This document shows positions 1 to 33,136 of a stretch of 64,000 bases of DNA, piece by piece. The notes under the pieces are model-generated. The model worked only from the letters and a program-made list of their open reading frames with translations. It did no database searches and was not told the DNA's origin. Numbering within the stretch: the stretch's first letter is position 1; every line of letters starts with the position of its first letter. The DNA comes from Salvelinus alpinus. Its lineage: Eukaryota > Chordata > Actinopteri > Salmoniformes > Salmonidae. The DNA lies in assembly GCF_045679555.1 (NCBI RefSeq), contig NC_092096.1:29210364-29274363 (forward strand). The letters are read 5' to 3'. Both the position numbers and the translations under genes were made by a program.

Positions 1-691
1 GCCTCCAGGCATTCTCCTCCCCTCAGCTGATTTCCTTTCCCTCACTGCGAGTGGAATATCACCACAGACATCTAGTAGGCCGTCTCAGAGGACTTGGTTG
101 TCTCGACAATATCCTATTTCTATTCTTCCATTTTAGAGTCATACAAAACGCTGCTCATTCTCCAAGGCAACCTTTCCTCCGTCTATTTGCACTTCAATCT
201 TATTAGTGTAGCTGGATAGTTTTTTATTTTTTTGTCCAAATGTCGAAATTGTATACTGATATGAAAATTGATATCCTTCAATCATGTTATTCTTGCCCTG
301 ACAAAAGCACAGTCTGTGTGCCAGGGGCTGAGTTCTAGTAGCCTGTGTGAGTGAAGGATTTTGGATTTCTCCCCCTGGTCTATCCCACTGCCAACAGTGT
401 CTAAACCCACTTCCAGTGATCCGTGCAGCTCCTTTAGTCTACGAGCATTTGGATACAATCACTACAGTGCTGAAATCCATTCTGAAAATGACACATTTCC
501 TTTGCCAGGCTGACACCACTTGTAATATAATGGAAGGGTTGAATGACAGATGAATGTAAGCGATATGCTAGGAAGATTTAATTGTCAGCCCCCAAAACCT
601 TTTTCTGCCCTCTTCCCATAGTAACGACACCAGCTGGTGGTAGTTTGTCACTCAATGTGTTTTTTCTATATTTTTTCTCCTCCCCCCGCAG
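1..691. other. Upstream flank of gas2l3, no gene recognised
   Basis: This stretch precedes the first recognisable gas2l3 coding exon. It ends in a pyrimidine-rich tract and a CAG acceptor immediately before 692. A short open frame at 347-553 has no recognisable similarity or splice support. An upstream non-coding or short coding exon of gas2l3 could lie here or left of the window, but none can be identified. Confidence 0.5.
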
Positions 692-3600
692 ATGTGGTTC
701 GGGGAGAAGTTTGACACGCCTCTGCAGAGTCCACGCAGCCCTTTGACGCTGCGCCATGGGCCGGGCTTGGCCGATGTCTTCCAGTATGACCAGTGGCTGG
801 CCGTGCGCCACGAAGCCACACTGGTACCCATGCAGGAGGACCTAGCCATCTGGCTCACCGGGATGCTGGGTAAGACCAGGAGGGTCATGGGGGAAAATAA
901 TTCAAAAAGTGTCGTTGTCTTGTTCCTGTGGCATTATTTGTACTCTGAACCTGGCAATGGAAGTTTGTTGGATGTGCAGCCTAGAATTCTTTCTTTTTTG
1001 TTAATAATTTGGCCTTAAATGTCTCGCCCTGTCACTCACCCCTCACTCCCAACAATACACACTAACACACTCATGCTAATATTTTCCTTTGTCTCTGATA
1101 CACAGGAGAGGAGGTGAGAGCGGAGAGCTTCATGGCGGAGCTGAACAACGGGGTGAAGCTGTGTCGGCTAATCGGAGCTCTGCAGAGCAGGATCTCTCAG
1201 AGCGGGGCCTCGGATATGGGCAAGGTGAGCTGTGATTAGAGGAATGGCAGGGGGAACAGGATATTAAGGAAGAGTGGGGAGAGTGGTAAGGATAGGGTAG
1301 TTTGAGATGGCGGTCTGTTTCCCATCTGAAAAGAGTTGGTGCGTTTGGTTCTGAAATGTTTTGTTTTTCTGTCCATTTGAAAATATTACCTAACCAAGAA
1401 TGGTCATATGTCAACTGTGATGCAATGCATGTGTGGTTAATTTGTTGTACTTTTTGAATGCCTTTCCCTGCAGTTGTTTCCCATGAAGAAGGTGGCATGT
1501 AAGTGCAATGCCTCTCCAGGGTCCTTTTTCGCCCGCGACAACACTGCCAACTTCCTGGGCTGGTGTCGCCGCATAGGCGTGGAAGAGACATACCTGTTTG
1601 AATCGGAGGGCCTAGGTACGTGTTTTAGTTGGTGGGGAGGCTGTACTGACCAGTAAGCACAGCAAGTAGGAGCTAATCACAAACGGCCATCGCTCCAGAC
1701 AGTTTTGAAGTGCATATTTGGGTTATTTTTTCTCGGCAGCCTCTAGTTAGCTTAGCATTCTGGCACGAATGTCCACAGGTATCAATCAAACCAAAACCCA
1801 TTCCGTCTTGTGTAATCAGTAGAGCAGAACCATGGTTGTACAGTCGAGGTAGGGTCCAACTCCATTCCATCCCACCACTCTTGTAACATTACTACATTAT
1901 CCTTGGAGTTAATTACCTAGGAGTTGATTAATACATTACTATGTTGCCCTTGGTGTTGTTTGATATATTACGACATTACCCTTGGAGTTGATTAATGGCT
2001 TCTTAGCTTAATCGGTTCAAAGAAACATGGGCTGAGTTGTAAGCCTTTAATGACTGAACGGAGCAGATGCCTCCACTGCAGCCATTGTCTGGCTTTTGTT
2101 TAAGCCATCCTCCTTAATGACATAATAGGATCCACCATAGAGAGCAATTAACATAAGTTCTTTATGTGAACACCTCGTTAAAAGTAATGGGTTTGTGACA
2201 CTGCTGCGATACTATACAACCATGTCGTCTCTCTACAATATGTATTTTCTCTGTCTCGCAGTTCTGCACAAGGATCCCAGGCAGGTGTGTCTGTGTCTGC
2301 TAGAGATCGGCCGCATCGTCTCCAAGTAAGTTTCCCTTGGTTGATTGATGATGTACAGTACCAGTCAAAAGTTTGGACATGCCTACAGTGATTCCATGTG
2401 TTATTTCATAGTTTTGATGTCTTCACTATTATTCTACAATGTAAAAAATAAAGAAAAACCCTTGAATGTGTAGGTGTGTCCAAACTTTTGACTGGCACTG
2501 TATGTGCTGTAGGTGTTGCACTGTGACAAAGGTAAGATAAGATCATTCTAGAACATGACCACCACATTTTGTTTTGACCTTTCACTGATCCTGTAGTTAT
2601 GAAATGTGGTATGTTGCAGCTGTGTTGGGGTAGAAAGATGGACAATGCAGCAAATGTGTGGCATCTTTTTTCCTATCCTAACAGTCCCTTTAGAGCACTG
2701 AACTGATCTGTTTTTCTCCATAGGTATGGGGTGGAGCCTCCGGTACTGGTGAAACTGGAGAAGGAGATTGAGCTGGAGGAGACCCTGCTGAAGACTACAG
2801 AGCCTGCTCCTGCAGTCAAAACCTTCACTGTGTGTTGCCAGCATGGGGGCCTCTACCAGCCTGGGGTAAGTCACTCCAAGAGTTAAAACTGCTATTGTCA
2901 AATTTGTACTGACTAAATAGGGACTCGGCTCCACTTTCGTCTCATCTCTTGTTGTTCTATTAAAATAGTTAGTTGGTGACCCAGTTCATCAGATCCAAAA
3001 TGGCGGCAGCAGTGGCTCTAGTTGCCTCGCTGCTCAGGGCTGTATGAGTCATTATGGTCCTTGTGATGCTCCATCCATCCGGGGTCATGTGACTCTGTAG
3101 CCTGTGGCACCAATGCAGCGCAGTCACAACATCAACAAACATCAGAACGCTTCCTGTGTCCACAGCCTAAGCTGCATGACTCTTAGCCTTTGATTAGTGT
3201 GTTTGCCAAAGCGGTCCTCTTCAACTACAGTATTCAGAGGCTGCTACTGAATGCTGTTCTATAGCCTTTCAAGTCTTTTCAACTTAAAATTGGTTCATTT
3301 GAGTTCATCGGTTCATTGGGTTTTCCTGTTAGCAACTCCGCTTTATCCTTAGGCGATGGATAATGAAACAGGGTTTCTCAATGTTTTAGAGAATTTCTTT
3401 CTCATGTTCTTACTTACTTATCCAGGACTCTATAGACCCATGTTAATTCTCCATCTCTGTGTTACAGGAGCAACATCTGACGGACGAGCCTCCGTGTAAC
3501 TGCTCCCAGAGAGTATCTATTGAATACCTGTCAGAGGGCCGTTACAGACTGGGAGACAAGACCCTCTTCATCCGGGTGAGCAGCACACACTGTATAGTGA

Positions 3601-6600
3601 CACACTGAACACTCCCAACCAAGCATTGAACACCAGTGTTGGGGTCAATTCCACTGCTAAGTGAGCATTAGACCTGTAGCTAGTGACACACCCTTTCTGT
3701 CCTCTGCCAAGAGACCAGGAAACATCTCTCCACCGTAACCTCATTCATTACCTGGCCACTAATCCAAAGGTTCAGTCTTGGTACCTGGCACACGTTTGGC
3801 TGTGTCAGCACCGTATAAATTAAATTACTACACATGACGTAATTCTATGGTCAGTACTTGTCTGGTCCTTTATACCTTCACATACTATAGACTGAATAGT
3901 CCTGTAGACTTGAGACCAACCTGCTATATAGACTACATAGTCCTGTAGACTTGAGACCAACCCTACTATATAGACTAGATGGTCCTGTAGACTTGAGATC
4001 AACCTGCTATATAGACTAGGTAGTCCTGTAGACTTGAGACCAACCTACTAGATAGTCCTGTAGACTTGAGACCAACCCTACTATATAGACTAGATGGTCC
4101 TGTAGACTTGAGATCAACCTGCTATATAGACTAGGTAGTCCTGTAGACTTGAGACCAACCTACTAGATAGTCCTGTAGACTTGAGACCAACCCTACTATA
4201 TAGACTAGGTAGTCCTGTAGACTTGAGACCAACCCTACTATATAGACTAGATAGTCCTGTAGACTTGAGACCAACCCTACTATATAGACTAGATGGTCCG
4301 GTAGACTTGAGACCAACCTACTAGATAGTCCTGTAGACTTGAGACAAAGACATTTTGGGAAAGTAAGCTTAGTACCGATGTTGGGTATTTAAGGCTGATA
4401 AAATGGTGATACAACTGGAAAGTAAAAGGCCGTGCCAAGTGTAAAACCCAGCGGTGTAGGGTAAAGGAAGGAGGAAACGTCTGTCTGTTGCTCACGGTTC
4501 TACACAGCAGCAGATCACACCCTAAGCTCATTAGGGAAGCAGAGTGGATCTTGTTAGTACTGGACCTACAGGAGGGATTACATCATTATTGGCCAAGGTA
4601 CAGCGTTAACACTTCCATCAAACAGCAGCTGAAAAATAGATGGTAGCTGTAGATAGTAGTTGGCAGCACTGTAGATATTAGTTGGTGGTAGTAGGAGTGA
4701 GTAGTGAGCGGTTAGTTGTGGTGGTAGTAGGAGTGAGAAGTGAGTGGTTAGGAGTGAGAAGTGAGTGGTTAGGAGTGAGAAGTGAGTGGTTAGGAGTGAG
4801 AAGTGAGTGGTTAGGAGTGAGAAGTGAGTGGTTAGGAGTGAGAAGTGAGTGGTTAGGAGTGAGAAGTGAGTGGTTAGGAGTGAGAAGTGAGTGGTTAGGA
4901 GTGAGAAGTGAGTGGTTAGGAGTGAGAAGTGAGTGGTTAGGAGTGAGAAGTGAGCGGTTAGGAGTGAGTAGTGAGCGGTTAGGAGTGAGTAGTGAGCGGT
5001 TAGGAGTGAGGAGTGAGTGGTTAGGAGTGAGGAGTGAGTAGTGAGCGGTTAGGAGTGAGTAGTGAGCGGTTAGGAGTGAGTAGTAGGAGTGAGTGGTAAG
5101 TAGTAGTAGGAGTGAGTGGTAAGTAGTAGTAGGAGTGAGTGGTGGGTAGTAGTAGGAGTGAGTGGTAAGTAGTAGTAGGAGTGAGTGGTAAGTAGTAGTA
5201 GGAGTGAGTGGTAAGTAGTAGTAGGAGTGAGTGGTTAGTAGTAGTAGGAGTGAGTGGTTAGTAGGAGTGAGTGGTAAGTAGTAGTAGTAGGAGTGAGTGG
5301 TAAGTAGTAGTGGGAGTGAGTGTAGATGCGGTTAACCCTTTAAAGAGACCAACTGCAATGTCTCACAATGTCACTCTCTCTCTCACTGTGATAGATGCTG
5401 CATGGGAAGCATGTGATGGTGCGTGTGGGGGGTGGCTGGGACACCCTAAGGGGTTTCCTGCTCAAGTATGACCCCGGCCGGGTGCTCCAGTTCACCACTC
5501 TGGAGCAGAAGATCCTGGCATACCAGAAGGGTCCACCGGGCCACGGTGGCCACGGCTCTGCAGCAGCAGCCCCTCCACCTGACATGGACCCTCTCGCTGC
5601 AGTCAACCTCATCCCCTCGTCTTCTTCCTCGTCTTCCTCTGGTTCGGCCTCCAAAGCCACCTGCACCCCCGTCTCGACCCCTACTCTGCCCAGGAAAGCA
5701 GCCGCAGCACCCAAAAAGATCCTGCAGATGCCCCTTCCCTCCCCCAAGAAGCCCACCCAGAAGCCCTTGCCAATCCCCAAGAAGGTGGCTGCTGTGTTGC
5801 CCACCCTGTCTTCGCAGCAGGGCCCAAGCCCTTCCATTCACAGTGGCAAGAGCCAGCAGACGGCGCCTCTGCTCCATTCCTCTTCTTCCTCAGCCGTGGC
5901 TCCTTCTGCCCCCAAGCTGAAGCTCAGGCCGTCCCCTCGTGGCGCCCTCTCCCAGCCTCGTAGCCCTGTGTGCCCCGAGCCCTCCCGTAAATGTCCTAAA
6001 CCCTCCTCCACTCCATCCACCCACACCTCCATCACAGTGCCTCGCCCCGCCACAGCCCCATCAAGGGTCCCCTTCCAGAAAGAGGGCCGACCCCCAACCG
6101 GCGCCACTCAACGCCGCCTGTCTCAGAGACGGCCCGCCTCCCCGGCCTCGCGCCTTCGTCTGGATGCTGCCAGACGGGTCCGTCCAACCCCCCGTGTGAC
6201 TGTGCCAACACCCAGGCCGGCAACAGCCCAACCCGCCAGGACACTAACCCCTACCTCCAGGACTGCCACAACAGCCCTGCCCAAATCCACCATCTCACTC
6301 CCCAAGAGCAAAGACACCACAGCCAAAAGCCAGGCCCAAACCAGGGCCATCTCCAAAGTGGTTGTGCCTCTATGTGGCGGCACCCCTGGGCCGTTACCAG
6401 GGGCCCCTAGTGGCTCTACTGCTGTTGGCAAGACCAACCAGAGAACGGTACCAACTGCCCAGAGGGCAGTACGGAGGCAAGCGCCCTCTGCCATCACCCC
6501 CTCTCTCAAACCGCAGCCCACCAAAACGGCCCCCCAAAATACCAGCCCCAACATCAAAGCCCTCCCTTCCCAAAAGAACACTGCTCTCACAAAGAAGACC

Positions 6601-18616: not shown

Positions 18617-19804
18617 CACTCCCGTTCAAAAGTTTGGGGTCAATTAGAAATGTCCTTGTTTTTGAAAGATAATTTAAAAAATTGTCCATTAAAATAACAT
18701 CAAATTGATCAGAAATACAGTGTTGACATTGTTAATGTTGTAAATGACTATTATAGCTGGAAACGGCAGATTTTTTATGGAATATCTACATAGGCGTACA
18801 GAGGCCCGTTATCAGCAACCATCACTCCTGTGTTCCAATGGCACGTTGTGTTAGCTAATCCAAGTTTATCATTTTAAAAGGCTAATTGATCATTAGAAAA
18901 CCTTTTTGCAATTATGTTAGCACAGCTGAAAACAGTTGAGCTGATTAAAGAAGCAATAAAACTGGCTTTCTTTAGACTAGTTGAGTATCTGGAGCATCAG
19001 CATTTGTGGGTTCGATTACAGGCTCAAAATGTCCAGAAACAAAGAACTTTCTTCTGAAACTCATCAGTCTATTCTTGTTCTGAGAAATGAAGGCTATTCC
19101 ATGCGAGAAATTGCCAAGAAACTGAAGATCTCGTACATCGATGTGTACTACTCCCTTCACAGAACAGCTTTAACTGGCTCTAACCAGAATAGAAAGAGGA
19201 GTGGGAGGCCCCGGTGCACAACTGAGCAAGAGGACAAGTACATTAGAATGTCTAGTTTGAGAAACAGAAGCCTCACAAGTCCTCAACTGGCAGCTTCATT
19301 AAATAGTACCCGCAAAACACCAGTCTAAACGTCAACAGTGAAGAGAAGACTCTGGGATGCTGGCCTTCTAGACAGAGTTGCAAAGAAAAAGCCATATCTC
19401 AGACTGGCGAGGGGAAGATTGGGAAAAAATGTTATGGACAGATGAATCTAAGTTTGAGGTGTTCGGATCACAAAGAAGAACATTCTTGAGACGCAGAAAA
19501 AATGAAAAGATGCTGGAGGAGTGCTTAATGCCATCTGTCAAGCATGGTGGAGGCAATGCGATGGTCTGGGGGTGCTTTGGTGGTGGTAAAGTGGGAGGTT
19601 TGTACAGGGTAAAAGGGATCTTGAAGAAGGAAGGCTATCACTCCATTTTGCAACGCCATGCCATACCCTGTGGACGGCGCTTAATTGGAGCCAATTTCCT
19701 CCTACAACAGGACAATGACCCAAAGCACAGCTCCAAACTATGCAAGAACTATTTAGGGAAGAAGCAGTCAGCTGGTGTTCTGTCTATAATGGAGTGGCCA
19801 GCAC
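18617..19804 (+). mobile_element. Tc1-C, left part of a Tc1-like transposon entered by the gypsy element
   Basis: The element begins CACTCCCGTTCAAAAGTTTG after TA (18615-18616), the terminus of a third salmonid Tc1 family. It runs through the transposase gene until the gypsy 5' LTR at 19805. The remaining third, with the final catalytic Glu and the right terminal repeat, is absent on the other side of the gypsy element, where LINE 2 follows instead. Confidence 0.82.
19029..19804 (+). pseudogene. Tc1-C transposase fragment
   Basis: From ATG 19029 the frame encodes the DNA-binding half (MSRNKELSSETHQSILVLRN, EGYSMREIAKKLKIS, GRPRCTTEQEDKYIR). A TAA at 19326-19328 interrupts it. Near 19400 about 20 codons expected from the family are missing (between KKKPYL and GEDWEKMLW). 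The catalytic half continues with WTDESKFEVFG (first Asp), SVKHGGGNAMVWGCF and [12 protein letters not shown] (second Asp), and stops at the EWPA motif where the LTR begins. The third catalytic residue is not present. Confidence 0.85.
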
Positions 19805-20385
19805 TGTCATGTTTTGTCATTGATTATCATGTCTTGTCCCTGTGCTTCCCTTCTATTCGTTTCCCTCTGCTGGTCTTATTAGGTTCTTTCCCTCTTTCTA
19901 TCCCTCTCTCTCCCCCTCCCTCTCTCCCTCTCTCCCTCTCTCGCTCTCTCTCTCTATCGTTCCGTTCCTGCTCCCAGCTGTTCCTCATTCTCCTAACTAC
20001 CTCATTTACTCTTTCACACCTGTCCCCTATTTTGCCCTCTGATTAGAGTCCCTATTTCTCCCTCTGTTTTCCGCTTCTGTCCTTGTCGGATCCTTGTTGG
20101 ATGTTTGCTGTTCTGTGTCCTTGTTCCGCCCTGTCGTGTTTTTGCCTTCTTCAGATGCTGCGTGTGAGCAGGTGTCTATGTCAGCTACGGCCTGTGCCTT
20201 CCCGAAGCGACCTGCAGTCTGTGGCCGCGTCTCCAGTCGTTCCTCTCTACTGACGAGAGGATTTCAGTTTTCCTGTTTTGGATTTACCTAAGATAATATC
20301 CAGGAGTATCGGTTTTTGTTTAAGACTGGAATAAAGACTCTGTTTCTATTAAGTCGCTTTTGGGTCCTCATTCAGCAGCATAACA
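19805..20385 (+). repeat. 5' LTR of the gypsy element
   Basis: The repeat starts TGTCATGTTTTGTCATTG and probably ends ...CATAACA, with gag about 20 bp further on. Its first about 520 bp recur at 24657-25172. The CT-rich tract at about 19895-19960 is a simple-sequence part of the LTR. Confidence 0.85.
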
Positions 20386-20403
20386 GAAGGATCCGACCAA
20401 GAA

Positions 20404-21323
20404 TGGACCCAGCGACTACGGATTCTCGCAACACTGCCGTCGAGTTCCAGGGAGCAATGCTCGGCAGACACGAGCAGGAATTGTCTGCTGCTCGTCATGC
20501 CGTTGAGACCCTGGCCGCTCAGGTCTCCGACCTCTCAGGACAGTTTCAGAGTCTTCGTCTCGTGCCACCAGCTACTTCCTGGTCTTCCGAGTCTCCGGAA
20601 CCTAGGGTTAATAACCCACCATGTTACTCTGGGCAGCCCACTGAGTGTCGCTCCTTTCTCACCCAGTGTGATATTGTGTTCTCTCTCCAGCCCAACACAT
20701 ACTCTAGAGAGAGAGCTCGGATCGCTTACGTCATATCACTCCTTACTGGTCGGGCTCGGGAGTGGGGCACAGCTATCTGGGAGGCAAGGGCTGAGTGTTC
20801 TAACGATTATCAGAACTTTAAAGAGGAGATGATACGGGTTTTTGATCGTTCAGTTTTTGGGAAGGAGGCTTCCAGGGCCCTGGCTTCCCTATGTCAAGGT
20901 GATCGATCCATAACGGATTACTCTATAGAGTTTCGCACTCTTGCTGCCTCCAGTGACTGGAACGAGCCGGCGTTGCTCGCTCGTTTTCTGGAGGGACTCC
21001 ACGCTGAGGTTAAGGATGAGATTCTCTCCCGGGAGGTTCCTTCCAGCGTGGACTCTTTGATTGCACTCGCCATCCGCATAGAACGACGGGTAGATCTTCG
21101 TCACCGAGCTCGTGGAAGAGAGCTCGCGTTAACGGTGTTCCCCCTCTCCGCATCTCAACCATCTCCTCCCACCGGCTCAGAGACTGAGCCCATGCAGCTG
21201 GGAGGTATTCGCATCTCGACTAAGGAGAGGGAACGGAGAATCACCAACCGCCTTTGCCTCTATTGCGGTTCTGCTGGACATTTTGTCATGTCATGTCCAG
21301 TAAAAGCCAGAGCTCATCAGTAA
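20404..21323 (+). CDS. gag: gag-like polyprotein of the gypsy element
   Basis: This is the structural gene of the LTR element, likely starting at MDPATT. A gag-type central region ([29 protein letters not shown]) is followed by a basic linker and one CCHC zinc knuckle ([15 protein letters not shown]). It overlaps pol, which lies in the neighbouring frame, as is usual for this family. Confidence 0.85.
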
Positions 21324-24300
21324 GCGGAGGGCTACTGGTGAGCGCTACTACTCAGGTCTCTCCATCAAGATCCTGTACTACCTTGTCGGTCCATCTACGC
21401 TGGACCGGTTCGGCTGCTTCCTGCAGTGCCTTGATAGACTCTGGGGCTGAGGGTTGTTTTATGGACGAAGCATGGGCTCGGAAACACGACATTCCTCTCA
21501 GACAGTTAGGGAAGCCCACGCCCATGTTCGCCTTAGATGGTAGTCTTCTCCCCAGTATCAGATGTGAGACACTACCTTTAACCCTCACAGTATCTGGTAA
21601 CCACAGTGAGACCATTTCCTTTTTGATTTTTCGTTCACCTTTTACACCTGTTGTTTTGGGTCATCCCTGGCTAGTATGTCATAATCCTTCTATTAATTGG
21701 TCTAGTAATTCTATCCTATCCTGGAACGTTTCTTGTCATGTGAAGTGTTTAATGTCTGCTATCCCTCCTGTTTCTTCTGTCCCCTCTTCTCAGGAGGAAC
21801 CTGGTGATTTGACAGGAGTGCCGGAGGAATATCATGATCTGCGCACGGTCTTCAGTCGGTCCAGAGCCAACTCTCTTCCTCCTCACCGGTCGTATGATTG
21901 TTGTATTGATCTCCTTCCGGGGACCACTCCCCCTCGGGGTAGACTATACTCTCTGTCGGCTCCCGAACGTAAGGCTCTCGAGGATTATCTGTCTGTTTCT
22001 CTCGACGCCGGTACCGTGGTGCCTTCTTCCTCTCCCGCCGGAGCGGGGTTTTTTTTTGTTAAGAAGAAGGACGGTACTCTGCGCCCCTGCGTGGATTATC
22101 GAGGGCTGAATGACATAACGGTTAAGAATCGTTATCCGCTTCCCCTTATGTCGTCAGCCTTCGAGATTCTGCAGGGAGCCAGGTTCTTTACTAAGTTGGA
22201 CCTTCGTAACGCTTACCATCTCGCGCGCATCAGAGAGGGGGACGAGTGGAAAACGGCGTTTAACACTCCGTTAGGGCATTTTGAATACCGGGTTCTGCCG
22301 TTCGGTCTCGCTAATGCTCCAGCTGTCTTTCAGGCATTAGTTAATGATGTACTGAGAGACATGCTGAACATCTTTGTTTTCGTTTACCTTGACGATATCC
22401 TGATTTTTTCACCGTCACTCGAGATTCATGTTCAGCACGTTCGACGTGTACTCCAGCGCCTTTTAGAGAATTGTCTCTACGTGAAGGCTGAGAAGTGCGC
22501 CTTTCATGTCTCCTCTGTCACATTTCTCGGTTCTGTTATTTCCGCTGAGGGCATTCAGATGGATCCCGCTAAGGTCCAGGCTGTCAGCGATTGGCCCGTT
22601 CCTAAGTCACGTGTCGAGTTGCAGCGCTTTCTCGGTTTCGCTAATTTCTATCGGCGTTTCATTCGTAATTTCGGTCAAGTGGCTGCCCCTCTCACAGCTC
22701 TGACTTCTGTCAAGACGTGCTTTAAGTGGTCCGGTTCCGCCCAGGGAGCTTTTGATCTCCTCAAGAAGCGTTTTACATCCGCTCCTATCCTTGTTACTCC
22801 TGACGTCACTAAACAATTCATTGTCGAGGTTGACGCTTCAGAGGTGGGCGTGGGAGCCATTCTGTCCCAGCGCTTCCATTCTGACGATAAGGTCCATCCT
22901 TGCGCTTATTTTTCTCATCGCCTGTCGCCATCGGAACGCAACTATGATGTGGGTAACCGCGAACTGCTCGCCATCCGCTTAGCCATAGGCGAATGGCGAC
23001 AGTGGTTGGAGGGGGCGACCGTTCCTTTTGTCGTTTGGACTGACCATAAGAACCTTGAGTACATCCGTTCTGCCAAACGACTTAATGCACGTCAAGCTCG
23101 TTGGGCGTTGTTTTTCGCTCGTTTCGAGTTCGTGATTTCTTATCGCCCGGGAAATAAGAACACCAAGCCTGATGCCTTATCCCGTCTCTTTAGTTCTTCG
23201 GTGGCTTCTACCGACCCCGAGGGGATTCTCCCTGAAGGGCGTGTTGTCGGGTTGACTGTCTGGGGAATTGAGAGACAGGTAAAGCAAGCACTCACTCACA
23301 CTGCGTCGCCGCGCGCTTGTCCTAGTAACCTTCTGTTCGTTCCTGTCTCTACTCGTCTGGCTGTTCTTCAGTGGGCTCACTCTGCCAAGTTAGCTGGCCA
23401 TCCCGGCGTTCGGGGTACGCTTGCTTCTATTCGCCAGCGGTTTTGGTGGCCTACTCAGGAGCGTGACACGCGCCGTTTCGTGGCTGCTTGTTCGGACTGC
23501 GCGCAGACTAAGTCAGGTAACTCTCCTCCTGCCGGTCGTCTCAGACCGCTTCCCATTCCTTCTCGACCATGGTCTCACATCGCCTTAGACTTTATTACCG
23601 GTCTGCCTTCGTCTGCGGGGAAGACTGTGATTCTTACGGTTGTCGATAGGTTCTCTAAGGCGGCACATTTCATTCCCCTTGCTAAGCTTCCTTCCGCTAA
23701 GGAGACGGCACAAATCATCATTGAGAATGTGTTCAGAATTCATGGCCTCCCGTTAGACGCCGTTTCAGACAGAGGCCCGCAATTCACGTCACAGTTTTGG
23801 AGGGAGTTCTGTCGTTTGATTGGTGCTTCCGTCAGTCTCTCTTCCGGGTTTCATCCCCAGTCTAACGGTCAAGCAGAAAGGGCCAATCAGTCGATTGGTC
23901 GCATATTACGCAGCCTTTCTTTTCGAAACCCTGCGTCTTGGGCAGAACAGCTCCCCTGGGCAGAATACGCTCACAACTCGCTTCCTTCGTCTGCTACCGG
24001 GTTATCTCCGTTTCAGAGTAGTCTTGGGTACCAGCCTCCTCTGTTCTCGTCCCAGCTCGCCGAGTCCAGCGTTCCCTCCGCTCAGGCTTTTGTCCAACGT
24101 TGTGAGCGCACCTGGAGGAGGGTCAGGTCTGCACTTTGCCGTTACAGGGCGCAGACTGTGAGAGCCGCCAATAAACGTAGGATTAAGAGTCCTAGGTATT
24201 GTCGCGGTCAGAGAGTGTGGCTTTCCACTCGTAACCTTCCCCTTACGACAGCTTCTCGCAAGTTGACTCCGCGGTTCATTGGTCCGTTCCGTGTCTCTCA

Positions 24301-24535
24301 GGTCGTCAATCCTGTCGCTGTGCGACTGCTTCTTCCGCGACATCTTCGTCGCGTCCACCCTGTCTTCCATGTCTCCTGTGTCAAACCTTTTCTTCGCGCC
24401 CCCGTTCGTCTTCCCCCCCCCCCCCCCCGTCCTTGTCGAGGGCGCACCTATTTACAAGGTACGGAAGATCATGGACATGCGTTCTCGGGGACGTGGTCAC
24501 CAGTACTTAGTGGATTGGGAGGGTTACGGTCCTGA
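21254..24535 (+). CDS. pol: pol polyprotein of the gypsy element: protease, reverse transcriptase, RNase H, integrase
   Basis: Domains in order are aspartic protease ([13 protein letters not shown]), reverse transcriptase ([35 protein letters not shown]), RNase H ([24 protein letters not shown]), an integrase zinc-binding region (HPGVRGTL...CSDCAQTK) and the integrase core ([40 protein letters not shown]). A chromodomain-like segment follows (about 24460-24600, [17 protein letters not shown]), typical of chromoviruses that target chromatin. It is part of a fossil copy, not a host gene. Confidence 0.88.
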
Positions 24536-24656
24536 GGAGAGGAGTTGGGTTCCATCTCGGGACGTGCTGGACCGTTCGTTGATTGATGATTTCCTCCGTT
24601 GCCGCCAGGGTTCCTCCTCGAGTGCGCCAGGAGGCGCTCGGTGAGTGGGGGGGTAC

Positions 24657-25172
24657 TGTCATGTTTTGTCATTGATTATCATGTCTTGTCCCTGTGCTTC
24701 CCTTCTATTCGTTTCCCTCTGCTGGTCTTATTAGGTTCTTTCCCTCTTTCTATCCCTCTCTCTCCCCCTCCCTCTCTCCCTCTCTCGCTCTCTCTCTCTA
24801 TCGTTCCGTTCCTGCTCCCAGCTGTTCCTCATTCTCCTAACTACCTCATTTACTCTTTCACACCTGTCCCCTATTTTGCCCTCTGATTAGAGTCCCTATT
24901 TCTCCCTCTGTTTTCCGCTTCTGTCCTTGTCGGATCCTTGTTGGATGTTTGCTGTTCTGTGTCCTTGTTCCGCCCTGTCGTGTTTTTGCCTTCTTCAGAT
25001 GCTGCGTGTGAGCAGGTGTCTATGTCAGCTACGGCCTGTGCCTTCCCGAAGCGACCTGCAGTCTGTGGCCGCGTCTCCAGTCGTTCCTCTCTACTGACGA
25101 GAGGATTTCAGTTTTCCTGTTTTGGATTTACCTAAGATAATATCCAGGAGTATCGGTTTTTGTTTAAGACTG
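24657..25172 (+). repeat. 3' LTR of the gypsy element
   Basis: The sequence matches the 5' LTR from its first base, except for 8 bp in the CT-rich tract. It is preceded by a G-rich stretch (GTGAGTGGGGGGG), a plausible polypurine tract. At its right it abuts LINE 2. Confidence 0.85.
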
Positions 25173-28100
25173 AAATTATTTTGTAAGGTGTTCCAAGACG
25201 ATGGCGCAGAGTACATAAAAGCCCTTTTACCAAATTCAGTTCGGACATTTGGAACAGTTAGCAGGATAAAGTCTAGCGAACGAAGAGAGTACCCACCACA
25301 TTTCTGAACAATAAAAATGCCCAAATAAAAAGGTAGTAAACCCAAAATGGCTTTGTAAATAAAAGTATACCAGTGACTGAGCCTACGAGTGACTAGAGAA
25401 GGCCAGCCAACCCTGGTATATAAAGTGCAGTGGTGCGTAAGGGTTTTGCAGTTTAAAATAAATCTCAAAGTGCCATGGTAAAGAGTGTTAATTGATTCCA
25501 AACACTGAGCGGAAGCATTCATATATAAAATATCCCCATAGTCTAGTAAAGGCATAAATGTAGCTGATACTAGCCTCCTTCTGGCTTCAAAAGAAAAACA
25601 GGCCTTATTCCTAAAATAAAATCCCAATTTCAGCTTCAATTTTTTTGTAAGTTGTTGAATATGCAATTTAAAAGAGAGGCCGTCATCAATTAGAATTCCA
25701 AGATATTTATATGAGGTTACAACCTCAATCTCCTTGCCCTGACAGGTAGTAATAGGTGATAGGTTCAGAGGTCTATTTCTTGCATTAGAAAACATCATTA
25801 GTTTAGTTTTGTCAGTATTGAGGATAAGCTTCAATTGACACAAGGTATGTTGAATAGTATAAAAAGCAGTTTGCAAGTTCTGGAAAGCTTTTGTAAGAGA
25901 TGAGGCACAACAGTAAATAACAGTATCATCAGCATAAAAATGAAGTTGTGCATTTTGGACATTTTTGTCTAAATCATTTATATAAATAGTGAATAAGAGA
26001 GGACCAAGTACAGAGCCTTGGGGCACACCATTCAGGACAGACAATTTAACAGACATAAGCCCATCAAATTGAGTGCACTGAGTTCTATCAGACAGATAGT
26101 TAGCAAACCATGCAACTGCATGCTCCTAAAGACCTACACTCAACAATCTCTGCCTTAGTATAGCATGATCAACTGTATCAAAAGCCTTAGAGAGATCAAT
26201 AAAAAGTGAGACACAGTGCTGTTTTTTGTCAAGGGCTTCAGTGATATCATTTAAAACCTTCATGGCTGCTGTAATTGTGCTATGCTTCTTCCTGAAGCCC
26301 GATTGGTACATTGATAAAACAGAGTTAGTAAATAAAAACTCTTTTAGCTGTTCACTTACAAGGGTTTCAAGTATTTTCACCAGGGGTGACAGCTTTGAGA
26401 TTGGCCTATAATTATTTAAAAGAGTTGGATCTCCCCCTTTTAAAAGTGGTAGGACAAAAGCTGATTTCCAGATCTTTGGAATTTCATTACATTCCAGGGT
26501 TAGATTGAACAGATATGTAAGTGGTTCAGCTATGAAATCAGCAGCCAGATTTAAAAAGCAGGGATCCAAAAGATCAGGACCTGCAAGCTTTCTTTGATCT
26601 AAGGATTTCAGGGCTTTATGTACCACCTGCACTGAGAATGGCAGAAAGCTAAAAGTTTGACCAGCTCTCACTGGTTCATCCACACAGGGTTGTACAGAGA
26701 CAGAAGACACTGGTTCATCCACACAGGGTTGTACAGAGACAGAGGACACTGAATCAAACAGCCTACCAGATGATACAAAATGCTCATTGAAACAATTCAG
26801 CATTTCAGTTTTGTCATATATAGCAACAGTCCTTCAAAACACATGACGGTAATTCATTAACATTACTGTTACCAGACATAGACTTAATAGCATTCCAAAA
26901 CTTTCTAGGGTCATTCAGGTTATCAGTGGTAACAGACATAAAATATTCAGACTTGGCCTTCCTGAGAAGAAAAGAACACTTGTTTCGTAACTGCCTAAAA
27001 ATAAGCCAATCAGCATCAGAACAAGATTTCCTTGCTTTAGCCCAGGCTAGATTACGGTTGTGAATAATACAAGACAGCTCAGAAGAAAACCATGGATTAT
27101 CCCGCCCTTTAACCCTGAACCTGCGGAATGGTGCATGTTTGTTTACTATTTGGAAAAAAACATCATGAAAGAATATCCAGGCAGTTTCCACATCAGGGGC
27201 CTGTTGCACAAAACTAGGATAAGGGATTAAGCCAGGATATCTTGGTGATCCTGGCTCAATTGATCCGTAATCCGGTTGCACTAAAGATGGATAGGGGGCA
27301 GGAGGATATGTTATGGTATAAATTACCATGGAGATTTATTCTGTGGAGCTAGCCTGCTCCAGACCAGGCTAAATTCCAGGATCTATTTAATCTCATCCCT
27401 AATGTCAGTCAGCAGTCACCACAAATGGAAACCAATAGTTATTTCACTGCTCACTATACATTGTTATCACATATAACTAGACCCACTGTTATTATTTAAA
27501 CGTTTGTGATCATTAATTTCAATGATTTTGGATAAAAAATGATTTTTAGATGATGTTGCTATCATTAGATAATTTACAGTTTCCCATAGACTATAAGGCT
27601 ATATATAAAATGATAGAATATTAGGGCCACAGAGGGGGAAAAAACACAAGTCATAATATTGTAACCAGTTGTTTTAAAGGAGGACAGTTGTTAAAATGAC
27701 AGATGTGGGGCATTTCGTGAAATTGTACTTCAGTATGGTTTCATAAACAAAGACATGCTGATGTGCCAGAATATTAAGTATCACATTGTCATAAGTATCA
27801 AAACTGTAAAAACAATATGTAGCTTTTCTGCAGAAAGAACCAGCCTCATAAATTTATGACTTTATCCTTTTTCTTCAGTGTGGCCCTAGTACTCTGTCAT
27901 ATAAACAAATACACATTCCATATGAATATAAAAACACAATGTGTAACATTATGTTCCTTTATTGAATAAGGACAAAACAAAGCAGGTAAACCATCAGCTC
28001 CTTTCGAAACTGAAGTCACAGTGACTCTACAAGATGGAAAGCACAGAATCCAAGCATATTATACAAAATGATACATACACATTCAAAGGTCTGTATATAA

Positions 28101-28324
28101 CACACCCTGCATGTCTGCACACTAAAATAAATGCAGGACAAATCCATACACATCAACTGAACAGACAAATGAATGGATGCAGTAGCCTCCCTGCAGCCTT
28201 GTATTACACACAGTATACCGCACAAACATCATAAGAGGCCAAATTCGTCAAAAAACGAACCCAAAAAAACCCAAATTCCTCTGCCACCGCAGGACATATT
28301 TAACCAAAATTGAAAGCACACATA

Positions 28325-29615
28325 CTAACTAAAATAATTCAACACATATTGGTCCCTCAGCAGCCGACCACTGTCGTCATCAGGGAAGATTGCCGGATTG
28401 TCCCGGTCCATGGCTGGTGGCACTCTGGGGGCCCTCTCCTTCCTCAGGCAGGCCACATTGTGGAGGACAGCACAAGCCACAGTAATATCACATGCCCTAA
28501 CAGGGCTGACCCTTAATTTGTGAAGGCAGTGAAAGCGTGCCTTCAGGAGGCCAAAGGTCATTTCAACTCTGGCCCTGGTCCTGGCATGGGCATGGTTGTA
28601 GGCCTGCTGTGCTTCCTGGGGGTCTGTGAAAGGTGTCAGGAGAAAAGGCTGGCAGCCATACCCCCTGTCTCCCAGCAACACACCAGAGAATTCACCTGTC
28701 AACACAAAATCTCATCATTACTACCTCATAAACACAGTGATATTCTTGACACAGCCATGATGGTTATAAATAGGGGTTGTGTGGCTTACCTTGTGATAGG
28801 CACTGATAGATTTCAGAGGCCCGAAAGATTCTGGAGTCATGGACTGAGCCAGGCCATTTTGCCACAACATTGCTGATCACACAGTCAGCATTGCAGACCA
28901 TCTGAAATCATAAGATGAGGAATATTACACCAATCAATGCACATCACTGGCAATGCAGAGTGTTCGTCAATGGACAATATCAAAAAGTTATGTTCACCTG
29001 AACATTAATGCTGTGAAAGGATTTCCTATTCACAAAATCGGCCTCATGGGCACCTGAGGGGGCTTTTATCCTTATGTGTGTGCAGTCCACTGCACCAATG
29101 ACATTGGGGAAACCTGTCACACAAAGTAATGAGTATCCTACTATGTGTTAACAGTTGTCCTGTAATTTGTAGATCCTCTTACCTGCAATCCTATAGAACT
29201 CCTCTTTGATGTCACAGAGTCTTCTGTGGCCAGGGAAGGAGATGAAGACATCTGCTAATGCTTTGATAGCCAGACACACACTCCTTATTGTGCGGCAAAT
29301 TGTGGCCTTGTTCAGCTGTTCTGCATCCCCCACTGAGTACAGGAAGGCTCCACTAGCAAAAAAGCGCAAGGCCACACAAACCATTTGCTCCACACTCAGT
29401 GCATGGCTCCGTGCAGTGCGGTGCTTAATCCTGGGACCCAGTAGTCTGCATAGATACCTGATGCCATCTGCAGAAAACCTGTATCTTTCATATAGATGGT
29501 CATCAGGGAAGGCCAGTGGGTCCAACCGGTCCCTGAAGACCCTTTCTCGCCTGAAGGCTCTCCTCAGCACAAGTGCTTCTTCATCCACCACATCTCGCAC
29601 GAATGGGCATGCCAT
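28325..29615 (-). CDS. Harbinger transposase (HARBI1-like DDE nuclease), four exons, open
   Basis: Exons in reading order: 29615-29183, 29113-28998, 28901-28790, 28695-28325. All junctions are GT/AG and phases agree, giving 343 residues, near the usual size for HARBI1-like proteins. The start is [16 protein letters not shown]. The N-terminal part has a helix-turn-helix-like region ([20 protein letters not shown], then [17 protein letters not shown]). The catalytic triad is visible: Asp in [12 protein letters not shown], Asp in [10 protein letters not shown], Glu in [15 protein letters not shown]. The C-terminal [14 protein letters not shown] motif is typical of the family. An upstream in-frame ATG (29672) would add 19 residues and is less likely. 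It is adjacent and parallel to the Myb-like gene. Confidence 0.9.
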
Positions 29616-29835
29616 TGTCAGAGCAGAAAGGAACACACAATTTTGGGCCTTCATATAGGCTAGTGGCCACACCTGGTGCTGGGGGGGTGGGCAAAAGAGG
29701 GCGATGCCTTATAACGATGACTTGGTTGTACTGATTGCTGGGAAAATAAAAAAAACCTTAGAAAGATGCCACCGTCCTGTGTGCTCACAATAAGAGCTCA
29801 TATGTCATGGCTCACTTGACTTTACGAGAATATAC

Positions 29836-30975
29836 CTAATTTTTATTTTGAGCTGTGTCATCTTCTTGGAGCTGGGGGAGGAAAGAAAAATAATGATTAA
29901 TACATTTGTGTTACAGTTAGCATACAGTGTACATTGAAGGCATATCTCACCTCCCTCTCAAGTTTTTTTATTTCAAGGTCCAGTTTCCTAATTGTCCTCT
30001 TTTTTATTTCGGACTCCAGTGCAAGATTTTCCATCTTTTTCTTCTTGTACTGAATGTCTATGTCTGCCAGTTCTATTTGGCGCCGGAGGTGGTTGCCATA
30101 CAACTTTCTGATAGCTTGTGAGCTCTGTGAACACAATACAATTAGCGCAGCTGGAATTTGGCAGGATGTGGTGTCCTTTTATTAATACGCACTATGTTGC
30201 CAGGCTGGTTTTCCCACTGTATAGCATCTGGGTCCTGTAAAAGAAATTAGATTTTTTGATTTTGATGAGGACTCCTCACCATTGTAGAGTAAATAGTACT
30301 TTCACAGTCTTAACATGATACCTCATGCCTTCTGGAATCCAGAGAGATGGTCTCCTCCTCATCATCGTCTCCATCATGTGCTGTTGCTGCTGCACTGGGG
30401 CCTTCACCCTATCACATTTAATCGGATTCATATTGAAGCTAGTAGACAAGACATGCCAGGCCTACAGTATGCCTTTGATGGAGTACTCACTGGATCAGCA
30501 TCGTCTGGTGCTTGTGCTGGTGGCTCTAACAGGAACACAGTGCTGCCAGACACTGCAAGGCAATAGGTAAACCAAAGTCAGACAGTCCAAATTGATTCAA
30601 TATGAATGTGGTTGTATCCCATGTAGAGATGGAAGGACATACCTTGAATGAAGCGGGTGGCATCTTGGGAGGAACCTATGCTCGTCTCTTTCCCCCCAGG
30701 GATCCCCTCTAAGACGGGCCTGCCTTTATTTAGCTCCAAGGCCATGTCCTCTGCTGGGGTAAGGTCAGCCTTTGGTGACCCACCACCCGTGCCTTGTCTG
30801 TGGGTATTCTTTTTCACTGCTAAAACAGTACAGACAATGTGTGAGCAGGCACCTTCTGGGTACAATATATGCTTGTGCTTTGTTAAATATTAGTCAGGGA
30901 CCATACCATTCTGCAGAATGTTCTTGTATTTGATTTTGACCTGCTGCCATGTCCGTTTTGGCCCGTTCATGTTTA

Positions 30976-31015
<40 letters not shown>

Positions 31016-31434
31016 TTAATGGAGTCACACTGCAAAAAATTACTTGGTATTTTTGTCTTGTTTTCAGTAAAAATATCAAAAAATTTATCATAGCTTTATA
31101 CAGTGTGATGGAGTTACTTTACACAATTTCACTCATATCTGCAGTGCATTTCAATAAAAAATGTAACCGTTTCATAATTACAGTACAACTGCATTTTTGG
31201 AGATGTGAATTAAATATTTGAATTGTAATTGTGATGTTTCAGCGGAGCGGTGAGTGTGTAATTGTGCACTACTTACGCATTCAGGCGGTCTGCAATACTT
31301 TGCCACGCTTTTTCTCTTTGCTTTATCACTGTGGCGGTGTTGCCTTTCTTCTTAATTATATCTTTTACCTCCTCGTATGCCTCCATGAGGATTTGTGCTT
31401 CCGACGGGGAAAAGTACGCGGCTCTAGTTGCCAT
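29836..31434 (-). CDS. Harbinger Myb/SANT-like DNA-binding protein, eight small exons, open
   Basis: Exons in reading order: 31434-31277, 30977-30907, 30819-30643, 30552-30491, 30408-30322, 30234-30193, 30124-29951, 29871-29836. They join in phase to 268 residues. The N-terminus (MATRAAYFSPSEAQILMEAY, then WQSIADRLNALNMNGPKRTW and QQVKIKYKNIL) is a Myb/SANT-like trihelical domain. The middle is acidic and low complexity (DGDDDEEETISL). The C-terminus is a charged coiled coil (SSQAIRKLYGNHLRRQIELA through LDLEIKKLERE). In Harbinger elements such a protein partners the transposase. The first intron's acceptor directly follows an (AC)n microsatellite (30980-31013). Exon 8 is only 36 bp and is the least certain. 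Confidence 0.8.
30980..31013. repeat. (AC)n microsatellite
   Basis: About 17 dinucleotide units lie immediately upstream, in the reading direction of the minus-strand Myb-like gene, of that gene's second exon. The acceptor therefore has a (GT)n tract in place of a normal polypyrimidine tract. Confidence 0.9.
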
Positions 31435-32152
31435 GGTAAATCAGTTAATCTGTGATCTGTGGCGGGGTCTATTTGAGTGAGCCGTGAGCGCGCACCTATC
31501 CAGGATTGGTTTCACCTGGCTTAATGAATCCGTGTCTGCTCATCCTGGCTTGGTCTTTGTGCAACCAATTAAGCCTGGACGCACATGTTTTGGCTTCATT
31601 GAGCTCAGCTGAGTCATTTATCCCGGATGTCTTAATTCTACTTTTGTGCAACAGGCCCCAGGGATAAACTCAATCTTGCTCCAGTCAAAATAAAACAAAT
31701 CATGAAAGAAAGCCTGCTCATTAAAACACTTCAAATTTCTCTTACGAATAAAACGTGGATTTGTCTTTGGAACCTTAGTATTTCTAACAGCAACAACAGC
31801 ACAATGGTCACTTAAATCATTACAAAAAACACCAACCGCAGAATATTTATGTGGAACATTTGTCAATATCAAATCAATCAGGGTAGATTTATCTGGGCAT
31901 TTAAGATTTGGGCGAGTGGGTGAATTAATCAACTGGGTAAGATTCATAGAATTACAAAACATTTTTAAATCATCAGACACCGGCTTTAACCAACACCAGT
32001 TGAGATCACCAATCAAGATCATTTCACTGTAAAGAGGTTTAGACATAAGGTGCGTCAAAGAAGAAAATGCATCACCGAGAGCAGAGGGGGGTCTATAACA
32101 GCCAATCACAGTTATAGAGAGGCCCTTTGAAACCTCAATATTCAAAGCAAGA

Positions 32153-33136
32153 AATTACCGTAACAGTCCAAAAAAGTAATAAACCAATACCTTTCTAATA
32201 TTTTGTTCACATTTCTCGCCAAATAAAAAAACCTGAGTTAAACATAACACTGAAAATAAATGTAATTATAAAAAAGCTATACAATTATATCAGACTTTTT
32301 CCCAGTTTGAGTGTTTTAGCCGTTTTTGTAATGAGAAGGTCAATTGCGGTAAAGTGGGTGATTGAGAATAAGAACTTCATTCTGAAGGCATTTAAATGAA
32401 TACATTTACTTAACCTCTACAACTCTAGATGATGCATCATAGGTAAATAAAACTAAATATGATAGTTTAATGTAAATGTCAACGTGTATTACATTTTATG
32501 ATTTATGGACAAACTACAGCAACATATTTTGTGTTTTATTCAAATAAGTTTGTTTTTCTAAAGTAAAATTGTATACAATTCTGGACACGAGAATTTAGTC
32601 TGGATGCATTTCGATAATGAGAATTTGGTATGAAAATTTACAAAATTCTGTAGAAAGTTAAAAACGGATTTAAAATATACACGTTTGCCAAAAACGATAC
32701 ATCTTAGTCCTTAGAATGATAGTTGATTTATCAGATGCATCATGGTTTTGTAACTCAATTTGCTACAGATATGTTTAAAACTGGTTTCATGGTAATCACC
32801 CAGTTGCTGTTTTGTTCAGGGATTGGGCAAATGTAAACCCAGCACGAGGTTACAATCTATGCGCTCTGGAACGCCCGCTAGGACTAGGGACTGGGACCTG
32901 CCCAGTTTGTTTTGACGTCTCCTGGAGAAAGGAAGTGGCTTGCAGCAGTTGACATTCGTAGTACGTTTGAGCGACCGGACATGGTTGGAGTTGTTCCGCG
33001 GAAGCAACAACAGCAATGAAAACGAATTTGTAGCCACACTATGTTGCACTGGCCTGTAGCCTTTATTGAATATCTCAGCAACTGTGTTGCAAGTGAATGT
33101 AGCAGACTAGGAAGTAGGAACGTGGGCCTGAAGAAA
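32153..33136 (+). other. Spacer and probable promoter / 5' UTR of tm7sf3
   Basis: From LINE 2's 5' end to about 32780 the sequence is AT-rich with nothing recognised. From about 32820 to 33136 it becomes GC-richer with several CpG (for example around 32860-33000), consistent with a promoter and 5' UTR. An in-frame upstream ATG at 33041 precedes the chosen start. The exact transcription start cannot be seen. Confidence 0.45.

Follow-up and report, generated by a model that had tools for sequence, protein, structure and literature searches.

A 4462-bp element at positions 27197-31658 of the window (the whole 64-kb stretch of Salvelinus alpinus DNA analysed here) is very probably a structurally autonomous cut-and-paste transposon of the NuwaI group, whose family has multiplied recently enough for its copies to be nearly identical. 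The genome search for near-identical copies that the original prediction had called for, in which 29 of 876 candidates were scored, returned at least 26 end-to-end matches with 98-100% identity on at least 15 contigs, including that of the window; these matches exclude a single diverged copy without siblings. The 18 best siblings were fetched with their flanks and compared with the window copy (19 copies); as the top-ranked matches, these 18 are biased toward good copies. We conclude that the family spread very recently because many almost identical complete copies lie elsewhere in the genome. Recent mobility of the family is well supported and, to judge from the sequences, the family may still be moving.

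Structure of the element and its insertion site

The element contains two genes on the minus strand, the Myb-like gene first, between inverted ends that are identical over 17 bp. The prediction of an intact two-gene Harbinger-type transposon at this position, with its ends, CAG duplication, four and eight exons in phase and three acidic residues, was borne out.

27197..31658, minus strand: complete element (inverted ends, CAG duplication, gene models, empty-site reading, siblings)
27197..27213, plus strand: left terminal inverted repeat GGGCCTGTTGCACAAAA (exact)
31642..31658, minus strand: right terminal inverted repeat GGGCCTGTTGCACAAAA (exact)
27194..27196, unstranded: target-site duplication CAG, left copy (restored-frame reading)
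31659..31661, unstranded: target-site duplication CAG, right copy (restored-frame reading)

With up to three mismatches allowed, GGGCCTGTTGCACAAAA occurs in the 64-kb window at these two ends only, against 0.24 matches expected, and two or more such inexact matches were obtained in 2 of 100 shuffles. The inverted arms match at 22 of 24 positions inside the element; reading the inverted repeat as 25 nt at 92% counts one flanking base per side. The 17-bp ends are exact at both termini in all 18 fetched siblings. Five exact 17-base matches to GGGCCTGTTGCACAAAA in viral contigs were judged to be chance given the size of the collection, and our literature search for the end sequence found no transposon paper, judged by title.

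The insertion is precise: when the window flanks are joined by a single CAG, the retroelement that it interrupts regains a 291-aa frame. Searches of the 64-kb window at the DNA (E 0.01) and protein (E 1) levels revealed no further copies of the element, Rfam gave nothing on the window at gathering score, and a scan of the right end for bacterial-type promoters and terminators, whose models are bacterial and uninformative for fish, gave no match. The element had been proposed as the best still-mobile candidate, which holds among the window DNA transposons examined. The companion claim that nearly all the others are broken stands for the three Tc1-like remnants that were read, and its scope is those three.

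The transposase gene

The transposase gene is open, with four exons encoding 343 aa that join in phase over GT/AG introns without an internal stop.

29183..29615, minus strand: transposase exon 1, start codon at 29615 (gene model)
28998..29113, minus strand: transposase exon 2, D154 in AVDCTH (gene model and Pfam)
28790..28901, minus strand: transposase exon 3 (gene model and Pfam)
28325..28695, minus strand: transposase exon 4, D230 in LGDRGY and E265 in VEMTFG (gene model and Pfam)

The catalytic residues are D154, D230 and E265, with a spacing of 34 residues from D230 to E265. Pfam places DDE_Tnp_4 at residues 153-300 (E 2.2e-38); the protein also matches two related DDE families, the sole remaining listed match is the sub-cut-off Marek_A, and no HTH family is listed at E 0.1. 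Codon 318 encodes R in the window copy and W in all 18 siblings read (W318R), so the window copy is not the cleanest of its family.

The predicted kinship with HARBI1 is present but distant: two HARBI1-like loci in the same genome, which we take to be HARBI1, share ~40% amino-acid identity with the transposase. The alignment to a HARBI1-like protein from this genome, read in one frame, spans all three exon junctions. Four loci (L014, L015, L021 and L022) encode transposases at 30-47% identity and a fifth (L013) one at 25%. No DNA match to the element was present in the best PF13359 loci (L006-L013) or in nine fetched regions (L014-L022). The window element was itself not among the matches listed in the PF13359 profile search of the genome (150 of 2266 candidates scored), probably because exons get scored separately. 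Pattern matches to transposase relatives numbered 3 in viral contigs and 43 in prokaryote genomes, with none confirmed, and a search of solved structures by sequence returned none for the transposase or the Myb-like protein.

The Myb-like gene

The Myb/SANT-like gene is likewise open, its eight exons encoding 268 aa in phase over GT/AG introns with no internal stop.

31277..31434, minus strand: Myb-like exon 1, start codon at 31434 (gene model and Myb_DNA-bind_5)
30980..31014, unstranded: (AC)n microsatellite within the first Myb-like intron (unit counts of 11 to 26 among 18 of the 19 copies, L023 left out)
30907..30977, minus strand: Myb-like exon 2, acceptor inside the (TG)17 microsatellite (gene model)
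30643..30819, minus strand: Myb-like exon 3 (gene model)
30491..30552, minus strand: Myb-like exon 4 (gene model)
30322..30408, minus strand: Myb-like exon 5 (gene model)
30193..30234, minus strand: Myb-like exon 6 (gene model)
29951..30124, minus strand: Myb-like exon 7 (gene model)
29836..29871, minus strand: Myb-like exon 8 and stop (gene model)

Pfam identifies Myb_DNA-bind_5 at residues 4-77 (E 4.1e-16), and an AATAAA running from 29847 downwards overlaps the 3' end of the frame. Scored with a simple ad hoc consensus measure devised for this analysis, the splice sites are mixed in strength. The weakest are the acceptor of Myb intron 1, whose tract is the (TG)17 repeat, the acceptor of intron 4 and the donor of intron 5. 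Myb introns 2-7 were placed from reading frame and splice signals alone. Transcripts of both genes would be spliced as predicted.

Sibling copies and recent multiplication

Over ~4416 bp each of the 19 copies carries 0-4 substitutions relative to the majority (35 in all), mean pairwise divergence is 0.079%, and no indels occur outside the microsatellite. In 17 of the 19, both genes are open and their splice sites preserved; one copy has an early transposase stop and another lacks the Myb stop. This count speaks against the expectation that two open genes are uncommon among vertebrate Harbingers, as do two studies: 269 fully intact copies are reported in the sea krait Laticauda colubrina, with only one in L. 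laticaudata (PMC8437027), and 11 NuwaI families have two intact ORFs (PMC4482050). Coding changes comprise 1 synonymous and 8 non-synonymous, counted per copy and including the early stop, the lost Myb stop and one change common to three copies. No purifying selection is visible, although the counts are too small to judge.

Two copies on different contigs (L028 and L029) match completely outside the microsatellite, which is of equal length in both. Together with the mean divergence of 0.08%, this identity counts against a rival reading in which the burst was very recent but is over, leaving young, intact, silenced copies that no longer move; it speaks for youth, though, not for activity. That reading, which concerns present activity only, is a serious possibility to which we give somewhat less than an even chance. 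Fish transposons are generally repressed (PMC9179366), and in L. laticaudata the expansion of a similar element was followed by a slowdown, with one fully intact copy left (PMC8437027).

Multiplication of the copies by assembly artefact, segmental duplication or gene conversion in place of transposition is very unlikely. Among 15 pairs of variant sites that copies share, 7 show all four combinations, which makes some exchange of sequence among copies (or recurrent mutation) likely, and one flank of L023 adjoins unread bases. However, the flanks differ among the 26 readable sites, each of which is bordered by CWG on either side, and the sites share a consensus context, ACCWGGT; duplication or misassembly would not yield this pattern. 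Two copies 80 kb apart on one contig (C17) also differ in their flanks. A domesticated host gene pair of the HARBI1/NAIF1 type, with no transposon, would fit the intact genes and the ~40% identity to the HARBI1-like loci, but domesticated pairs are single-copy and lack ends (criteria in PMC9710019). The ends, duplication and many near-identical copies refute this explanation, which we give practically no chance.

Classification and related systems

By published criteria the element belongs to NuwaI, the CWG-duplicating group within the PIF/Harbinger-like superfamily (PHIS), and is no new kind. NuwaI elements occur in bony fish and have a CWG duplication, 12-61 bp ends beginning GGG, and a DDE-only transposase accompanied by a Myb/SANT ORF (PMC4482050). 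Here the duplication is 5'-CWG-3' at 26 of 26 readable sites, the ends begin GGG and are exact over 17 bp (22/24 over 24 bp), and a DDE transposase without a second domain is paired with a gene encoding Myb_DNA-bind_5. At ~4.46 kb the element resembles NuwaI in all of these respects, with no difference in the features tested. The initial PIF/Harbinger label is thus right as to Harbinger type and needs refining to NuwaI, since the duplication is CWG (Han et al. 2015, PMC4482050). PIF/Harbinger in the sense of those authors (5'-TWA-3' duplication) is ruled out by CWG at 26 of 26 sites, and ISL2EU, which has an AT duplication and an ORF for a YqaJ exonuclease, by the CWG duplication and the Myb-like second gene.

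Likened by description, zebrafish Harbinger3_DR shares the two genes, a Myb-like protein with a 9-bp subterminal motif and a long target preference (PMC2836001, PMC9710019); it was made functional as a rebuilt consensus, whereas the present family consists of native copies with both genes open. Harbinger-Snek of sea kraits, also compared by description, is alike in its recent vertebrate expansion and many intact two-gene copies, but belongs to another host and has reported solo-gene and non-autonomous variants (PMC8437027). Rice Ping/Pong with mPing likewise needs two proteins and has an extended target preference, but makes TAA-type duplications, and its activity and precise excision are proven (PMC2836001). 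Our literature search found no recent salmonid Harbinger, judged by title.

Subterminal motif and predicted mechanism

A 9-mer test of every word of both ends picked out AATTAAGCC, whose motif score was equalled by 0 of 100 shuffles.

27214..27413, unstranded: left subterminal region, 3 of 7 copies of AATTAAGCC (up to one mismatch)
31442..31641, unstranded: right subterminal region, 4 of 7 copies of AATTAAGCC (up to one mismatch)

These copies form a possible binding array for the Myb-like protein, given that the Myb-like protein of Harbinger3_DR recognises a 9-bp subterminal motif (PMC9710019). Such motif guesses can fail, because a Harbinger3_DR-derived protein from another fish left a TIR-promoter motif unbound in gel shift, with ChIP positive (PMC11893794). 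CCWGG cores, four per 200-bp end, were our first idea for the motif and were superseded by the 9-mer test; TTAAGCCAGGAT, with three mismatches, had no window-wide enrichment (50 found against 63 expected).

The tandem genes on one strand would give rise to a Myb/SANT-like protein and a DDE transposase. By analogy with Harbinger3_DR, the former would bind the subterminal motifs and bring the latter to the ends, which the transposase would cut, inserting the element into ACCWGGT targets and duplicating CWG; we infer these roles in transposition from the related system. With many near-identical two-gene copies, this fish genome offers a natural vertebrate setting in which to study how two-protein transposition works, how it is controlled and how targets are chosen. 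Should the apparent youth of the family be real, insertions ought to differ among individuals and could serve as markers.

Target sites and mixed duplications

The target preference of the family is evident in the ACCWGGT context of its insertions. Harbinger3_DR targets AAAACACCWGGTCTTTT, the core of which is the core of the target found here. The duplication is identical on left and right at 22 of the 26 readable sites, and the other 4, at L027, L036, L038 and C16:52594049, pair a CAG flank with a CTG flank, differing in the central base only with the outer C and G constant. No prior report of mixed CAG/CTG duplications was found in our literature search.

One rather unlikely explanation is that the element may take single-stranded CWG letters of the donor site along to the site of insertion. 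The excised element would keep the three-base overhang of the donor duplication, and ligation would sometimes place this overhang in the gap at the target, leaving a W-W mismatch. Repair of this mismatch in either direction would produce CAG/CTG flanks exactly as in the 4 mixed sites. If this is true, the near-identical open copies would represent a native vertebrate Harbinger whose joining step is readable from genomic insertions.

An intact two-gene element within a retroelement

The Harbinger family represented in the window is real, intact and very young, and is of a kind already known. The original prediction described an intact two-gene transposon, and its ends, the CAG duplication, and both open genes were confirmed, with exons that give proteins of 268 and 343 aa. 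The two features concerned are, in window positions:

27197-31658, whole element (4462 bp), both genes on the minus strand, Myb-like gene first
25091-32154, non-LTR retroelement into which the transposon is inserted

The 17-bp ends are identical to each other and have no further occurrence in the window, even allowing three mismatches, and CAG adjoins the element on both sides. Excision in silico of the element and one CAG left a minus-strand frame that runs unbroken for 291 aa. The interrupted sequence is a non-LTR retroelement with an endonuclease match on the upstream side and reverse transcriptase matches on the downstream side, and the restored continuity of its frame demonstrates that the insertion edges are exact. 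Downstream of the insertion, the retroelement's coding sequence is also interrupted by an in-frame stop and a shift to another frame. At 27610-27900, in the element's left, non-coding part, are 47-nt inverted repeats, 72% complementary and 197 nt apart, perhaps an old nested miniature element common to the family. A Ty3/Gypsy-type retrotransposon lies at 19803-25176; its terminal direct repeats are 98.3% identical, and its gag and pol frames are long and open.

Coding capacity and predicted junctions

The Myb-like gene has eight exons, which encode the 268-aa protein, and the transposase gene four, which encode the 343-aa protein. Their start codons (ACCATGG and ACAATGG) are, by the usual rule, judged to be in good context. 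Pfam identified DDE_Tnp_4 in the transposase (2.2e-38) and Myb_DNA-bind_5 in the Myb-like protein (4.1e-16), and these matches extend across the second and third transposase junctions and the first Myb junction. Alignment to a HARBI1-like protein of the same genome, encoded in a single frame over that part, crosses transposase junctions 1 to 3. Myb junctions 2-7 are predicted from frame and splice signals only. Myb intron 1 is the least trusted junction, as its acceptor lies inside a (TG)n repeat whose length ranges between 11 and 26 units across the 18 counted copies. In the window copy this repeat is (TG)17, at 30980-31014 and immediately preceding the acceptor; it could tune splicing of this intron. 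A donor-like GT after the Myb-like stop codon and a good acceptor just before the transposase start, both within 29709-29850, make a common transcript for both genes conceivable. Two distant transposase-like loci, L014 on contig C33 and L015 on C5, encode proteins ~40% identical to the transposase over its first two thirds. We take these to resemble duplicate HARBI1 genes.

Sibling copies and age

We searched the genome (2.37 Gb, 928 contigs) with the whole element for the near-identical siblings proposed as a check. Copy counts are lower bounds, as 29 of 876 candidates were scored. The search gave 32 matches, 26 of which, including the window copy, cover bases 1-4462 at 98-100% identity on 15 contigs. 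A sixteenth contig, C5, has two more (1-4461 and 1-4417) as a tail-to-tail pair at C5:84519641-84528451 (loci L051-L053), whose centre is rearranged, leaving a left end on either outer side; CAG and CTG flank the pair, which may have moved as a dimer. On C2, one copy is in three pieces and another stops at 3791.

The window copy and the 18 best-ranked siblings were compared whole. These 19 copies, 4450 to 4480 bp long, carry 35 substitutions in total relative to the majority (0-4 per copy over ~4416 bases), and no indels except in the microsatellite. Pairwise divergence averages 0.00079, with a maximum of 0.0018. L028 and L029, copies on different contigs, are the same outside the microsatellite, and their microsatellite lengths are also equal. 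In 17 of 19 copies, both reading frames are open and the splice sites intact; of the other two, one is cut short by a stop at transposase codon 337 of 343 and the second lacks the Myb stop. The window copy, one among many, is not the cleanest: its transposase residue 318 is R, against W in the other 18. At an assumed neutral rate of 2-10 per billion sites per year, a general range rather than one specific to S. alpinus, 0.00042 substitutions per copy would put copy age between some tens of thousands and about two hundred thousand years. Anatomy and siblings show recent transposition of the family; present transposition is plausible.

Insertion sites

Both ends were available for 27 insertions (the window copy, 18 whole copies, and 8 by ends), and 26 have readable flanks, that of L023 adjoining unread bases. 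The C5 pair and the early-ending C2 copy, with CTG seen at one end, are outside this count. All 26 sites have CWG at both flanks. The symmetrised target context is A C C W G G T (71%, 73%, 100%, W, 100%, 73%, 71%), and the window copy's own site, ATCAGGG, fits it partially. A 15-bp target preference is described for vertebrate elements (PMC2836001).

Left and right duplications are equal at 22 of 26 sites, and at the remaining four the central base alone differs. These mixed sites (L027, L036, L038, and L056/L057) have CTG on one flank and CAG on the other, with the outer C and G invariant. Chance mutation is unlikely, as it would need to strike one base of three in 4 of 26 sites among copies so alike. 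Terminal gene conversion is possible, since among 15 pairs of shared variants, 7 have all four combinations. A donor-site overhang carried along would also explain the mixed sites.

Subterminal motif and transposition scheme

Allowing one mismatch at most, the 200 bp adjoining each end on the inside contain three copies of AATTAAGCC at the left and four at the right, a score reached by none of 100 dinucleotide shuffles. The 64-kb window has 13 occurrences, 7 of them in these two ends. The Myb-like protein of zebrafish Harbinger3_DR recognises a 9-bp subterminal motif (PMC9710019), to which AATTAAGCC may be the counterpart. In another fish, a Harbinger3_DR-derived protein was reported as ChIP-positive on its TIR-containing promoter and gel-shift negative on a similar-looking motif there (PMC11893794), the latter cautioning against easy motif guesses. 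For Harbinger3_DR and Ping/Pong, PMC2836001 describes transposition that requires two proteins: the Myb-like one attaches to the ends and contacts the transposase, which depends on it to enter the nucleus, and excision is as a rule precise, one duplication being lost. The S. alpinus element would be compatible with this scheme, which nothing here contradicts.

Relationship to published elements

A survey of fish Harbingers (42 consensus sequences, 154 individual copies) reports both ORFs retained in the elements studied and transfer between salmonids and carp (PMC9179366). Han et al. 2015 set CWG elements apart as NuwaI, with ends of 12-61 bp that usually begin GGG, a DDE-only transposase, and a Myb/SANT ORF (PMC4482050). 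They list 23 families, 11 of them with two intact ORFs, from 16 animal genomes, 12 of which are of bony fish (PMC4482050). The S. alpinus element has all NuwaI features testable here, and its assignment is by these features. Autonomous NuwaI elements average ~4462 bp (PMC4482050); since sibling lengths vary, the agreement with the window copy is a coincidence.
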